64,000 nucleotides of DNA, from assembly GCF_011398925.1 (NCBI RefSeq), contig NZ_AP022842.1:2344001-2408000 (forward strand), given 5' to 3'. Positions 10,268-63,546 of the stretch are shown here, in pieces. The DNA is from Bacillus sp. KH172YL63 (GTDB taxonomy: Bacteria; Bacillota; Bacilli; Bacillales; Bacillaceae_B). Every line of letters starts with the position of its first letter. The first letter of the stretch is position 1. Below the pieces are notes generated by a model. That model searched no databases. It saw only the letters and a program-made list of their open reading frames with translations, and was not told the DNA's origin. The position numbers and the translations under genes were made by a program.

Positions 10268-10275
10268 AAATAGAA
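10268..10275. repeat. Target site duplication, left copy (AAATAGAA)
   Basis: The 8 bp directly before the left end of the IS are AAATAGAA, identical to 11797-11804 directly after the right end. Eight-base duplications are typical of IS1595-family elements. Confidence 0.9.
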
Positions 10276-10411
10276 GGCTGTTTTCGTAAACTTTGTTGTT
10301 ATGTTAATAGATTTTCGGACTTTGTGCTATTTTATATTTATATAGGAACTTTCTGAAACTTAATATTGGTTGAACCGTATTAAAAGAGTAGAGATGAAAG
10401 GAGATGGTTCT

Positions 10412-10630
10412 ATGGCCCAATGCACAAATTGTGATTATAAGTGGAAAGCCAAAGAAATATGGTCACTCGGATTTTCAAAGAAGGGAAAAGACTGTCCTAA
10501 CTGTGGGGTTAAGCAATATATTTCCTCTGAAACTCAACGGACATTTACTTTAGGGTATCTAAGTCTTGTATTTATTGTGATTTTCCCTTTCATTATTAAG
10601 TTGAGCGATAAAGACGAACCTTTATGGTAG
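10412..10630 (+). CDS. CxxC-N-CxxC zinc-ribbon membrane protein carried by the IS (TIGR04104-like)
   Basis: 72 residues. Two CxxC pairs (CTNC at 4-7 and CPNC at about 30-33) flank a basic spacer (DYKWKAKEIWSLGFSKKGK), as in the cxxc_20_cxxc family TIGR04104. A hydrophobic helix (about 48-65) follows, so it is probably a membrane-tethered zinc ribbon. Start chosen at 10412, with AAAGGAG 9 nt upstream. It lies wholly inside the insertion sequence and is not needed for the known transposition mechanism, so it is a passenger gene. Role unknown. Confidence 0.75.
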   Translation: MAQCTNCDYKWKAKEIWSLGFSKKGKDCPNCGVKQYISSETQRTFTLGYLSLVFIVIFPFIIKLSDKDEPLW

Positions 10631-10700
10631 GTTCTCAATAAACACAATTGATAATCTCAAAAGGCAAAAGGCTAGTAATTGCTATCCTTTTTTTATGTCC

Positions 10701-11561
10701 TCACGCAATCTTTCTAAATGAATTTACAGTTGCATAATTAGATTTTTGACACACAGAAACAAGCATTTGCTCTACTCGTTTATCAAATGCTAAATCCTTT
10801 CCTAATTCGAGCCAACGGAACCAATAAAGGTAATTGTCCAAATAATGTGTACCCACACCTTGGAAACGCCCGAACCACCCTTTTAAGCGGTTGTGAAAAT
10901 TATTAACGTGTTGTATGTGGTAGATACCCTTCTTAACACGTTGTTTTTGTCGTTCATTAACTGTTTCGTGCAATAGTCCTTTGAGTTTGGCAAACTTCTT
11001 GTACTTAGTGGCTGTATCTGTGCATAACAAAGCAGACGGGTGAATATACTCACCTATCACAGTGTCAATTTCTCCGGATTTAATACGCCCTGTTCCCGCT
11101 TTTCGAGCAACCATATTGCCATTTCTATCTTGTGCTACTACAACAGCAATTTTAAGGTTAGAAATACCTCTTTTCTTGTCTTTTTCACCACGTTTCTTGG
11201 CTTTTCTGTGTGTAATTTCACGACAACCTTTTAAAGACTCACGAAAGAAGGTTTCGTCACTTTCTATGATACCTTGCAATTGATTAAAACCAAGTCTTCC
11301 TAATGCGTTCAAGATTTTATGTCTCCAATAAAATGCAGTAGAAGTGTGTATTTGAAGTTTTTCAGCGATTTTGGGTAGAGTAAATCCATCCACCATTAGT
11401 TCAATGTATTTAACCCATTTTTCAGGATAGCGTGAGCCTGAAAATGGCGTATTGGTCATATCATTGGATGTTTTATTGCAATCCTTACATAGATAGCGTT
11501 GGCGAGTACGATATTTAGCATTACGTTTAACAGACGTACTTCCACAATGAACACAAGCCAT
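10701..11561 (-). CDS. IS1595-family transposase, main frame
   Basis: 286 residues from the internal ATG. An N-terminal zinc ribbon (CVHC at 3-6, CKDC at about 26-29) is followed by a helix-turn-helix region (LPKIAEKLQIHTSTAFYWRHKIL) and an ISXO2-like DDE-type catalytic domain: ESDETFF, LCTDTATKY, then HVNNFHNRLKGW, giving D-D-N with a downstream Lys as in IS1595. The open frame continues upstream of this ATG (IREARFASG), which shows that the true protein began earlier; the upstream part is in another frame (see 11581-11715). Confidence 0.85.
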   Translation of the reverse strand: MACVHCGSTSVKRNAKYRTRQRYLCKDCNKTSNDMTNTPFSGSRYPEKWVKYIELMVDGFTLPKIAEKLQIHTSTAFYWRHKILNALGRLGFNQLQGIIESDETFFRESLKGCREITHRKAKKRGEKDKKRGISNLKIAVVVAQDRNGNMVARKAGTGRIKSGEIDTVIGEYIHPSALLCTDTATKYKKFAKLKGLLHETVNERQKQRVKKGIYHIQHVNNFHNRLKGWFGRFQGVGTHYLDNYLYWFRWLELGKDLAFDKRVEQMLVSVCQKSNYATVNSFRKIA

Positions 11562-11580
11562 ACCTGAAGCAAAACGTGCT

Positions 11581-11715
11581 TCACGAATAGTTTTGAGTAA
11601 TTTTGTTATTTTTATCTGGCTCTTCGGGAAACAAATCCTGTTTCATAGCGTCAAATAAAGCCATTTGCTCTGATTTCGTCAATTCTCTGAATTCTTCATA
11701 TACATCTTTCCACAT
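11581..11715 (-). pseudogene. Frameshifted N-terminal part of the transposase
   Basis: A 44-codon frame starting MWKDVYEEFRELTKSEQMAL and reaching FPEEPDK matches the usual N-terminal extension of IS1595-type transposases. It then leaves frame and stops. Removing one base from the five-A run (T5 at 11609-11613 on the plus strand) restores continuity into ITKLLKTIREARFASG and the zinc ribbon. So the transposase is broken by a single inserted A, or the run is a sequencing error, or slippage occurs on it. Confidence 0.7.
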
Positions 11716-11796
11716 ACTCGAACGCCCCGTTAAACTGCATTATATAAACCTTTATACTGTATGGTCAAGAAAGCAACAATCTATACGAAAACAGCC

Positions 11797-11804
11797 AAAT
11801 AGAA
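11797..11804. repeat. Target site duplication, right copy (AAATAGAA)
   Basis: Identical to 10268-10275; see the IS entry. Confidence 0.9.
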
Positions 11805-35790: not shown

Positions 35791-35822
35791 TAAAAAAATC
35801 CTCCCAATGATGTTGGAAGGAT
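35791..35822 (-). terminator. Intrinsic terminator in the vmlR leader (attenuator)
   Basis: ATCCTTCCAA/TTGGGAGGAT stem (one mismatch) with a 5-nt loop, followed on the minus strand by a T7 run. It lies 32 nt before the vmlR start, so full-length transcription needs read-through. An upstream AGCTAT/ATAGCT hairpin (35847-35868 region) could compete. B. subtilis vmlR is known to be controlled by such attenuation. Confidence 0.75.
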
Positions 35823-36032
35823 CAGCCGGCAACGTACACAAAGAAAGCTATCTTGCATTCAATAGCTAACACGTTATTAAAAATGGGCAGACTAATCCTA
35901 TTTAGGTTCATTTGAAATATGGAATTTCAAACATCTCGAAAATAAGATTAGTTCTTCATTGTCCACCCATCACTCCTGTCATATTCAGTAAATTCACCTT
36001 ACCACAAATGCAGACTCCCTGGCAAAAGAAAA

Positions 36033-42647: not shown

Positions 42648-42678
42648 AGCAGACGCCCGTGGGCATCTGCTTTTTTGT
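42648..42678 (+). terminator. ykpA terminator
   Basis: GCAGACGCCC/GGGCATCTGC stem with a 2-nt loop gap, followed by T6. Confidence 0.85.
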
Positions 42679-42681
42679 TAT

Positions 42682-43039
42682 GGCAGTTTTCGTAAACATT
42701 GTTGCTTTATACAAGCGAGATGCGGTTGATTTCCGCTCCAGATGCTCGCTTTCCGCGGGGATGGCGGTGAGCCTCCTCGGACTTCGTCCTGCGGGGTCTC
42801 ACCTGTCCATCAGTTCCCGCAGGAGTCGAGCATCTTCCGCTCCAATCAACCATCGAAGGTAAAAACCAATATTCACTGTATTAACTGCTTATTCATCTTT
42901 TGAATAGTAATGATCAACGTAATTCCAATACATTACCCTTGATCAATTGCTATTTCAATTTTTTTATTCCACAATCTCAAATTACCAAAGATGCTCACAT
43001 TAACGTTTAATAATAGCAACAATCAATGCGAAAAGAGAC
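42682..43039 (+). mobile_element. MITE copy A (IS1595-type ends), 358 bp
   Basis: Left end GGCAGTTTTCGTAAACATTG, right end reads GTCTCTTTTCGCATTGATTG when reversed; both resemble the IS ends at 10276 and 11796. TTTGTTAT lies on both sides (42674-42681 and 43040-43047), a perfect 8-bp target duplication. The interior has a GC-rich hairpin (42724-42851) and an AT-rich right half; no gene. Confidence 0.85.
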
Positions 43040-43056
43040 TTTGTTATATTCAGGGT

Positions 43057-45560: not shown

Positions 45561-45915
45561 GGCTGTTTTCGTAAACATTGTGGCTTTTAGACAATCGAGG
45601 TGCGGTTGATTTCCGCTACAGATGCTCGCTTTCCGCGGGGATGGCGGTGAGCCTCCTCGGCTTCGCCTGCGGGTCTCACCTGTCCATCAGTTCCCGCAGG
45701 AGTCGAGCATCTTCCGCTCCAATCAACCATCGAGGATAAAAACCATAAATTCACTGGGTTAAATGCTTATTTATCATCTAAAAAATAGTGATAATCCTAA
45801 TTCAAGTGCATTGCCTTTGATTTATTGCTATGGCATTTTTTATTCCACAGTATGAAATCACCGAAGATGCTCACATTAACGTCTAATAATAGCAACAATC
45901 TATGCGAAAAGAGCC
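45561..45915 (+). mobile_element. MITE copy B (IS1595-type ends), 355 bp
   Basis: Ends GGCTGTTTTCGTAAACATTG and, reversed, GGCTCTTTTCGCATAGATTG. Same order of GC-rich hairpin and AT-rich half as copy A. No 8-bp direct repeat is seen; instead the flanks GTAA and TTAC extend the inverted repeat by four bases. Confidence 0.8.
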
Positions 45916-54355: not shown

Positions 54356-54572
54356 TACTGACTATGTAAAGATTGTGGCATCTTCCGCTCCAATCAACGA
54401 ACGAAGTTAAAAACCAAAAATTCACTGGATTAACTGCTTATTCACCTTTTGAATAGTAGTGTCAAGTAATTCCAGTACATTACGCTTGATTCATTGCTAT
54501 GGCAATTTTTTATTCCGAAGTCTCAAGTTACCGTATTTGCTATTAATAACAACAAACAATGCGAAAACAGCC
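54356..54572 (+). mobile_element. MITE copy C, internally deleted and degenerate
   Basis: The left end is worn (GTAAAGATTGTGG where copies A and B have GTAAACATTGTGG), then jumps directly to CATCTTCCGCTCC, losing about 140 bp that include the GC-rich hairpin. The right half and right end (ACAATGCGAAAACAGCC) match A and B. No target duplication is seen. The left boundary is by alignment. Confidence 0.65.
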
Positions 54573-63189: not shown

Positions 63190-63546
63190 GGCTCTTTTCG
63201 CATAGGTTGTTCCTATTATTAGACGTTAATGTGAGCATCTTCGGTAATTTGAGACAGAGAATAAAAAATGCCATAGCAATGAATCGAGTGCAATATACTT
63301 GATTGACGTTGATCACTACTATTCAGAAGATGAATAAGTAGTTAATCCAATGTATTTTTGGTAGTTATCTTCGATGGTTGATTGGAGCGGAAGATGCTCG
63401 ACTCCTGCGGGAACTGATGGACAGGTGAGACCCCGCAGGACGAAGTCCGAGGAGGCTCACCGCCATCCCCGCGGAAAGCGAGCATCTGCAGCGGAAATCA
63501 ACCGCATCTCGCTTGTCTAAAAGCCACAATGTGTACGAACACAGCC
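63190..63546 (-). mobile_element. MITE copy D (inverted), 357 bp
   Basis: Reverse orientation relative to A and B. Left end GGCTCTTTTCGCATAGG, right end reversed GGCTGTGTTCGTACACATTG. The flanking 8-mers TGGGATAA (63182-63189) and TAGGATTA (63547-63554) match at 6 of 8 positions, fitting a decayed target duplication. The core hairpin is intact. The left boundary touches the stop of the gene at 62983. Confidence 0.8.

Follow-up and report, generated by a model that had tools for sequence, protein, structure and literature searches.

IS1595-ended MITEs near terminators in a Bacillus genome and the hairpin module that they very probably carry as separate cargo

Introduction

The window analyzed here, meaning the whole 64-kb stretch of Bacillus DNA, contains a short element without a transposase gene (copy A), the ends of which resemble those of an insertion sequence (IS) located in the same window. 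Three related sequences, B, C, and D, lie nearby. The initial annotation tied these copies, and with them a common Bacillaceae repeat, to an IS1595 transposase that could move them in trans. The locus thus raises the question of how much of the repeat is accounted for by IS1595-type transposition. Bacterial MITEs are short, non-autonomous, multi-copy elements with terminal inverted repeats and target duplications, and the target duplication of the IS1595 family is 8 bp long. Taken as a whole, our analysis indicates that copies A to D are very probably MITEs dispersed by an IS1595-family transposase, situated near terminators and carrying a separate hairpin cargo. The relevant features of the window are as follows.

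10276..11796, forward strand: IS1595-family insertion sequence, with the exact 8-bp duplication AAATAGAA at 10268-10275 and 11797-11804
10701..11561, reverse strand: IS1595-family transposase reading frame, 286 aa; its N-terminal part, 11584-11715, is in another frame
42649..42676, forward strand: intrinsic terminator, hairpin plus T-run; the T-tract is the insertion point of copy A
42674..42681, forward strand: left target duplication of copy A, TTTGTTAT
42682..43039, forward strand: MITE copy A, 358 bp, without transposase gene
42682..42705, forward strand: left terminal inverted repeat of copy A, IS1595-type
42725..42850, forward strand: GC-rich hairpin core module GTTGATT...AATCAAC of copy A, common to stand-alone copies
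42851..43015, forward strand: AT-rich tail of copy A, divergent among copies
43016..43039, reverse strand: right terminal inverted repeat of copy A
43040..43047, forward strand: right target duplication of copy A, TTTGTTAT
45561..45915, forward strand: copy B, both ends good, 87% identical to A; duplication 3/8, that is, none
54356..54572, forward strand: copy C, internal deletion, degenerate left end; duplication 1/8, that is, none
63190..63546, reverse strand: copy D, 88% identical to A; degenerate duplication, 6/8

Results and Discussion

Ends and target duplications

The inverted ends of copy A are imperfect, and the 8-bp duplication TTTGTTAT flanking them is exact. BLAST comparison of copy A with the IS at 10276-11796 matched only the terminal 23-27 bp (87-91% identity), in agreement with the IS1595-type ends assigned to this copy in the initial annotation. 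A transposase gene is absent, the longest open reading frame overlapping copy A being 77 aa. The 8-bp duplication, which had been made part of the definition of the family, is exact only at copy A within the A-D set, the other three being relatives in which it is degenerate or missing.

The genome, a single contig of 4.25 Mb, was then treated as a whole. We examined 83 of its regions, taken among the matches listed, so that the true copy number may be higher, and accepted pairs of ends with at most 6 mismatches each, at most 10 together, and a spacing of 90-900 bp. This gave 49 elements at 48 loci; 35 of the 83 loci had no accepted pair, and two of these each hold one end of the IS. An exact 8-bp duplication flanks 16 of the 49 elements and is lacking in 33, and 29 have a duplication with at most one mismatch; the corresponding values for shuffled pairings were on average 0.29 (maximum 3) and 2.42 (maximum 7). 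The signal is confined to length 8, lengths 7 and 9 yielding 2 and 0 cases among the same elements. End-like sites with at most three mismatches occur 129 times in the genome versus 11 times for the reversed pattern.

Other records gave a similar picture. From 120 stretches, again among the matches listed, 75 elements were drawn, 47 of 122 junctions having been dropped because the right end was missing or the locus edge was too near. Exact 8-bp duplications were present in 38 of the 75 (control 0.26), and duplications with at most one mismatch in 53 (control 2.66). The titles available for 80 of the 120 stretches name Rossellomorea, Pseudalkalibacillus, Gottfriedia, Fictibacillus, Cytobacillus, Metabacillus, Peribacillus, many Bacillus sp., and one Pseudomonas sp.; these names refer to the 120 stretches as a whole. 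The proposal of a MITE family with IS1595-type ends and 8-bp duplications is borne out by both sets, and the duplications that the initial annotation suggested looking for in further copies occur genome-wide, far above shuffled pairings.

Empty sites and terminators

When the flanks of copy A are joined without the element, they give a single continuous alignment with at least 20 of 35 congeners, at 72-77% identity, so the comparison of occupied and empty sites called for in the initial annotation shows the copy A site to be empty in these genomes. The alignment at the joint is gappy, yet the same terminator, with a T-run behind it, can be made out in several congeners. At three further loci the flanks, once joined, also align over the joint: for L083 in three relatives, for L091 in two, and for L098 in two, with gaps adjoining the joint in the last two cases. 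End pairs, 8-bp duplications, and empty sites, each directly observed, identify the copy A family as a genuine MITE family of the IS1595 type.

The 34 nt preceding the left duplication of copy A fold at -14.6 kcal/mol. This location is representative of a wider preference. Among the 46 elements with an unbalanced T/A duplication, which were those tested for terminators, a hairpin of -9 kcal/mol or below is present on the terminator side in 21 and on the opposite side in one. Intergenic AT-rich control sites have such a hairpin in 5.3% of 1366 cases (Fisher p=4e-14; neighboring terminator control sites overlap, which makes the p-values optimistic). In other species the hairpin was found in 24 of 65 elements on the terminator side and in 6 of 65 on the opposite side. 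Hence the elements favor T-tracts directly behind intrinsic terminators, which may reflect either target choice or the survival of harmless insertions.

An orientation bias was considered as well. In the own genome the right end points towards the terminator in 16 of 19 oriented cases (binomial p=0.004), copy A being an exception; in other species 14 left-facing and 10 right-facing elements were counted. Since the bias is not replicated outside the own genome, we do not claim it.

The insertion sequence and its transposase

The initial annotation was right that the same genome contains an IS1595-family transposase, encoded by an IS whose ends match. The IS at 10276-11796 has ends resembling those of copy A and is flanked by the AAATAGAA duplication, which the initial annotation did not record. 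Its transposase matches PF12762 (E=4.6e-16) and NF033547, the NCBIfam model of IS1595 (E=1.5e-60), both above cut-off. The N-terminal zinc-binding domain is recognized by NF050000 with 41.5 bits against a cut-off of 28; matches to the Pfam zinc ribbons are below cut-off. This IS provides the sole PF12762 match in the genome. The transposase frame is broken near the N-terminus, whereas in the nine relatives displayed, out of 18 loci, it is uninterrupted; this copy of the IS is therefore possibly inactive. It is doubtful that the IS of the window moves the MITEs in trans at present, and it is better regarded as a relative, later or surviving, than as the family's proven motor.

In other genomes, ISs that have ends of this type and are flanked by exact 8-bp duplications were found at 7 of the 18 loci (L245, L246, and L248-L252), and three loci (L235, L243, and L244) carry other ends. 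Cognate transposases thus exist in the order. Among 15 other congeners sampled, a PF12762 match was found in one only (G339), and the ends of that IS are unrelated.

Two further observations concern additional genes in such elements. A small open reading frame of 86 aa inside the IS (window positions 10370-10630, opposite to the transposase) has zinc-ribbon-like cysteine pairs, its Pfam matches being weak and below cut-off; it is a possible passenger gene. Elsewhere in the genome, an 813-bp element (L071:751-1563, G000:C1:2130138-2130950) has IS1595-type ends on both sides and the exact duplication ATTTCAAA. It contains a 140-aa lipoprotein-like frame without Pfam match and no second frame of at least 80 aa, and has the appearance of a non-autonomous element bearing a passenger gene.

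The hairpin core as a unit apart from the ends

The core stands without the ends both in the own genome and elsewhere and is therefore a separate hairpin unit: IS1595 explains the vehicle, not the cargo. One stand-alone core (L099) is identical to that of copy A over 127 bases, with no ends nearby. IS1595-type ends were found at none of the seven stand-alone cores of the own genome and, on both sides, at all ten MITEs tested. For other genomes, cores were fetched by the core pattern alone and scanned for ends with at most 6 mismatches in 21 positions; 52 of 81 cores (37 genomes) have no recognizable IS1595 end, and 29, from 12 of the 37 genomes, have one on one or both sides. The same scan in control windows gave 0/163 on the left side and 4/148 on the right. 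Cores with an end make up 10/12 in G395, 5/5 in G046, and 4/4 in G379, and 1/10 in G056, 0/4 in G183, 0/4 in G314, and 0/3 in G137; 27 of the 37 genomes gave one core each. Locus L058 of the own genome is a visibly eroded MITE.

The pairing of the core with IS1595-type ends is nevertheless seen repeatedly, in several genera. Among the 397 genomes of the order, 35, representing 16 genera, contain GTTGATT at 12-36 nt behind a left end of the IS1595 type (reversed control 0). In 12 of the 17 junction genomes displayed (9 genera) the core is visible by eye, and in five (G030, G041, G066, G129, and G337) no clear core could be seen behind the junction. Exact duplications are visible in G064 (L222, L223, and L227). 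By eye, the linkers at the junction are unrelated between genera, and in G307 and G234 the core is inverted relative to the ends. These two features, unrelated linkers and both orientations, suggest that IS1595 MITEs of several genera acquired the hairpin module or exchanged it among themselves.

In two genomes of another family, G314 (L168, L176, L184, and L192) and G097 (L167, L175, L183, and L191), for each of which four cores were displayed, the cores appear by eye to be flanked by a repeat containing CTACCCTGAAAATA or close variants. This repeat is possibly a different vehicle. As a tentative reading, the core may be a portable DNA hairpin that changes vehicles, occurring in IS1595 MITEs, beside the other repeat, or alone, and that is actively kept uniform, through selection or conversion, independently of the vehicle.

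Some MITEs have no core body and keep a short palindrome and a single 8-nt motif, GCAGCGAG in L088, L093, and L105 and TCCGCTCC in a second element of L156, whereas full cores carry a motif of this kind at either side (identical in 44 of 52 cores, mixed in seven, and unclassified in one). All four combinations of arm states occur among these 52 cores (aa 42, ba 4, ab 3, bb 2, one unclassified), a mix compatible with exchange between copies, though not proof of it. The one-versus-two pattern can arise in either of two ways, by insertion of the core accompanied by an 8-bp duplication or by deletion through slippage across the hairpin.

Some cores contain a further insert of about 120 bp. In the own genome the insert TAGC...CTCGAGGTCATAAG... 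is nested in the cores of L055, L056, L059, L081, and L086, and elsewhere in those of L229, L230, L231, and L293; it is apparently a second dispersed structured module, present in several species. The congener G183 has a tandem array of cores (L135:1467-2517) with a period of 226 and 4.6 copies.

That the core is a mobile unit of another enzyme, the MITE being just one of its landing places, seems to us rather doubtful. Stand-alone cores, both orientations of the core in MITEs, the cores beside a different repeat in two genomes of another family, and the single 8-nt motif of core-less MITEs as opposed to two in full cores all agree with such a unit, but slippage deletion across the hairpin predicts the last pattern equally well. 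Moreover, no clean empty site of the core alone was found at L099, L100, L101, or L102. At the site orthologous to L100, four relatives shown hold core sequence of different core subtypes; at L101 two relatives also hold core sequence, with differing subtypes or with changes; at L102 the gap in two relatives exceeds the core, and at L099 the right flank is unaligned.

Structure and conservation of the core

For 46 cores, chosen from 115 for diversity and by the anchors GAGCCTCCTC and GGGGTCTC, 91.0% of the pairs in the drawn hairpin are standard versus 85.3% after shuffling, and 24 pairs are changed on both sides versus 11.1. The covariation score is 0.158, compared to 0.071 for shuffled data; none of 500 shuffles reached it, and slid versions of the hairpin scored 0.036-0.056. 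Seven pairs of helix 6 never vary, which is a consequence of selecting the cores by these anchors.

When pairs that are commonest as G-U are excluded, the changes are strand-symmetric: 31 G-U and 36 A-C states remain (77 and 36 with these pairs included), and therefore a fold of the RNA strand is not favored. A first automatic fold of 121 cores had given 262 G-U versus 58 A-C states, mainly from two columns. The Rfam search of the window at the gathering threshold left the core unmatched, and searches with L099, L081, and L056 at E up to 1 yielded weak matches only, far below gathering scores. The only Rfam match in the window lies elsewhere, at 35792-35992 on the reverse strand (the Bacillus sRNA ncr1575, 129 bits).

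The core is also better preserved than the rest of the element. In the 28 elements of 340-361 bp used for this comparison, divergence from the consensus is 0.027 in the core and 0.100 in the tail, roughly a fourfold difference, and lower in the core in 27 of 28 copies (p=4e-6). In the tail GC sites change faster than AT sites, yet the core diverges less. Mean pairwise identity is 0.95 for the core and 0.88 and 0.85 for the two ends. Either selection or gene conversion could account for this uniformity. A Mantel comparison of core and tail distances had a positive control (one half of the tail against the other) that was itself null (r=0.03).

Strong covariation and slow divergence, together with the intergenic site of L100 where four relatives hold cores of different subtypes, would suit a structured RNA element, that is, a regulatory or processing signal that is under selection and is disseminated by MITEs on account of being useful or harmless. 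We regard this as unlikely, in view of the symmetry of G-U and A-C changes and the lack of an Rfam match in the tests made; template switching is another way in which the two arms of a palindrome in DNA may be corrected.

Distribution across the order

The core pattern is present in 185 of 397 genomes and 58 of 135 genera of the order, at up to 291 places per genome (reversed control 0). PF12762, counted at E at most 0.001, was detected in 90 of the 397 genomes, with 82 of these 90 exceeding the curated cut-off. The co-occurrence of repeat and transposase that the initial annotation proposed to look for was not observed: PF12762 is found in 44 of 185 genomes with the core and 46 of 212 without it (Fisher p=0.63), and in 9 of 35 genomes with the MITE junction versus 81 of 362 others (p=0.67). 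As to repeats in genomes with no history of such a transposase, which the initial annotation had named as speaking against its proposal, present-day gene content shows no PF12762 match in 141 of the 185 core genomes and 26 of the 35 junction genomes. With 52 of 81 cores lacking ends and no tracking of the transposase, an IS1595 origin of the common Bacillaceae repeat is unsupported.

Thus it is improbable that the repeat is the IS1595 MITE itself and its copies lacking ends are eroded MITEs: erosion is visible at L058, the junction extends to 16 genera, and most or all cores of G395, G046, and G379 have ends, but the L099 core is identical to that of copy A with no trace of ends, the stand-alone cores of the own genome lack ends in all seven cases against none of the ten MITEs, and the majority without ends elsewhere, exemplified by G056, G183, G314, and G137, is joined by the many core genomes without a PF12762 match.

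Among phage records no match to copy A was found. Fifteen plasmid records match, and in 14 of them the best place is confined to positions 37-172 of copy A; the extent of the match alone does not show that ends are missing, because a BLAST alignment would stop at linkers that are unrelated. Six plasmids were fetched; three cores in all, located on two of them, met the core pattern, with no left-side end and one right end-like stretch, numbers too few to serve as evidence.

Proposed mechanism

We propose that an IS1595-family transposase recognizes ends of the form GGCTnTTTTCG...TTGTTGC and disperses non-autonomous MITEs, on which it would act in trans. Insertions show a preference for T-tracts behind intrinsic terminators, probably with little damage. 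As separate cargo the MITE would carry a covarying hairpin of about 127 nt, which is found across much of the order both in company of the ends and in their absence. Once inserted, the module may stay more uniform than the rest of the element, via selection or gene conversion among copies.

A large set of Bacillaceae repeats is hereby assigned to a transposase family, and its vehicle is separated from its cargo, so that the function or mobility of the cargo itself becomes open to test. Both data sets show the bias towards terminator T-tracts, and this bias suggests a route to high copy number at little harm. If the core is a portable hairpin, it would be a recurrent cargo of MITEs and not dead filler.

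Comparison with known systems

In the titles and abstract openings that made up the literature covered, with few subscription papers among them, none names this repeat or a Bacillaceae MITE with IS1595 ends, and the portion of PMC10969869 consulted has no matching passage. The IS1595 type also includes larger elements that carry other genes, and for MTnSag1 and tISCpe8 25-bp inverted repeats and a target duplication are described (PMC5704250). The elements analyzed here share with the IS1595 family (PF12762 / NF033547) the transposase family, inverted ends of about 25 bp, and the target duplication, but they carry a hairpin module in place of a transposase, resistance, or mobilization gene.

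Like bacterial MITEs in general, of which MITEAba12 (PMC6382973) is an example, they are short, non-autonomous, inverted-ended, target-duplicating, and multi-copy. They differ in an interior that, the ends apart, is dissimilar to the IS by BLAST, in containing a hairpin repeat that is found order-wide, and in their bias towards terminator T-tracts. The core can be likened by description to Bhal-1, a 74-bp stem-loop repeat family of Bacillus halodurans (PMC2267715), both being multi-copy stem-loop repeats of Bacillaceae. The part of that text consulted gives neither a sequence nor a vehicle for Bhal-1. The unusual part of the present system is its order-wide hairpin cargo, which is common to stand-alone repeats and better conserved than the vehicle.
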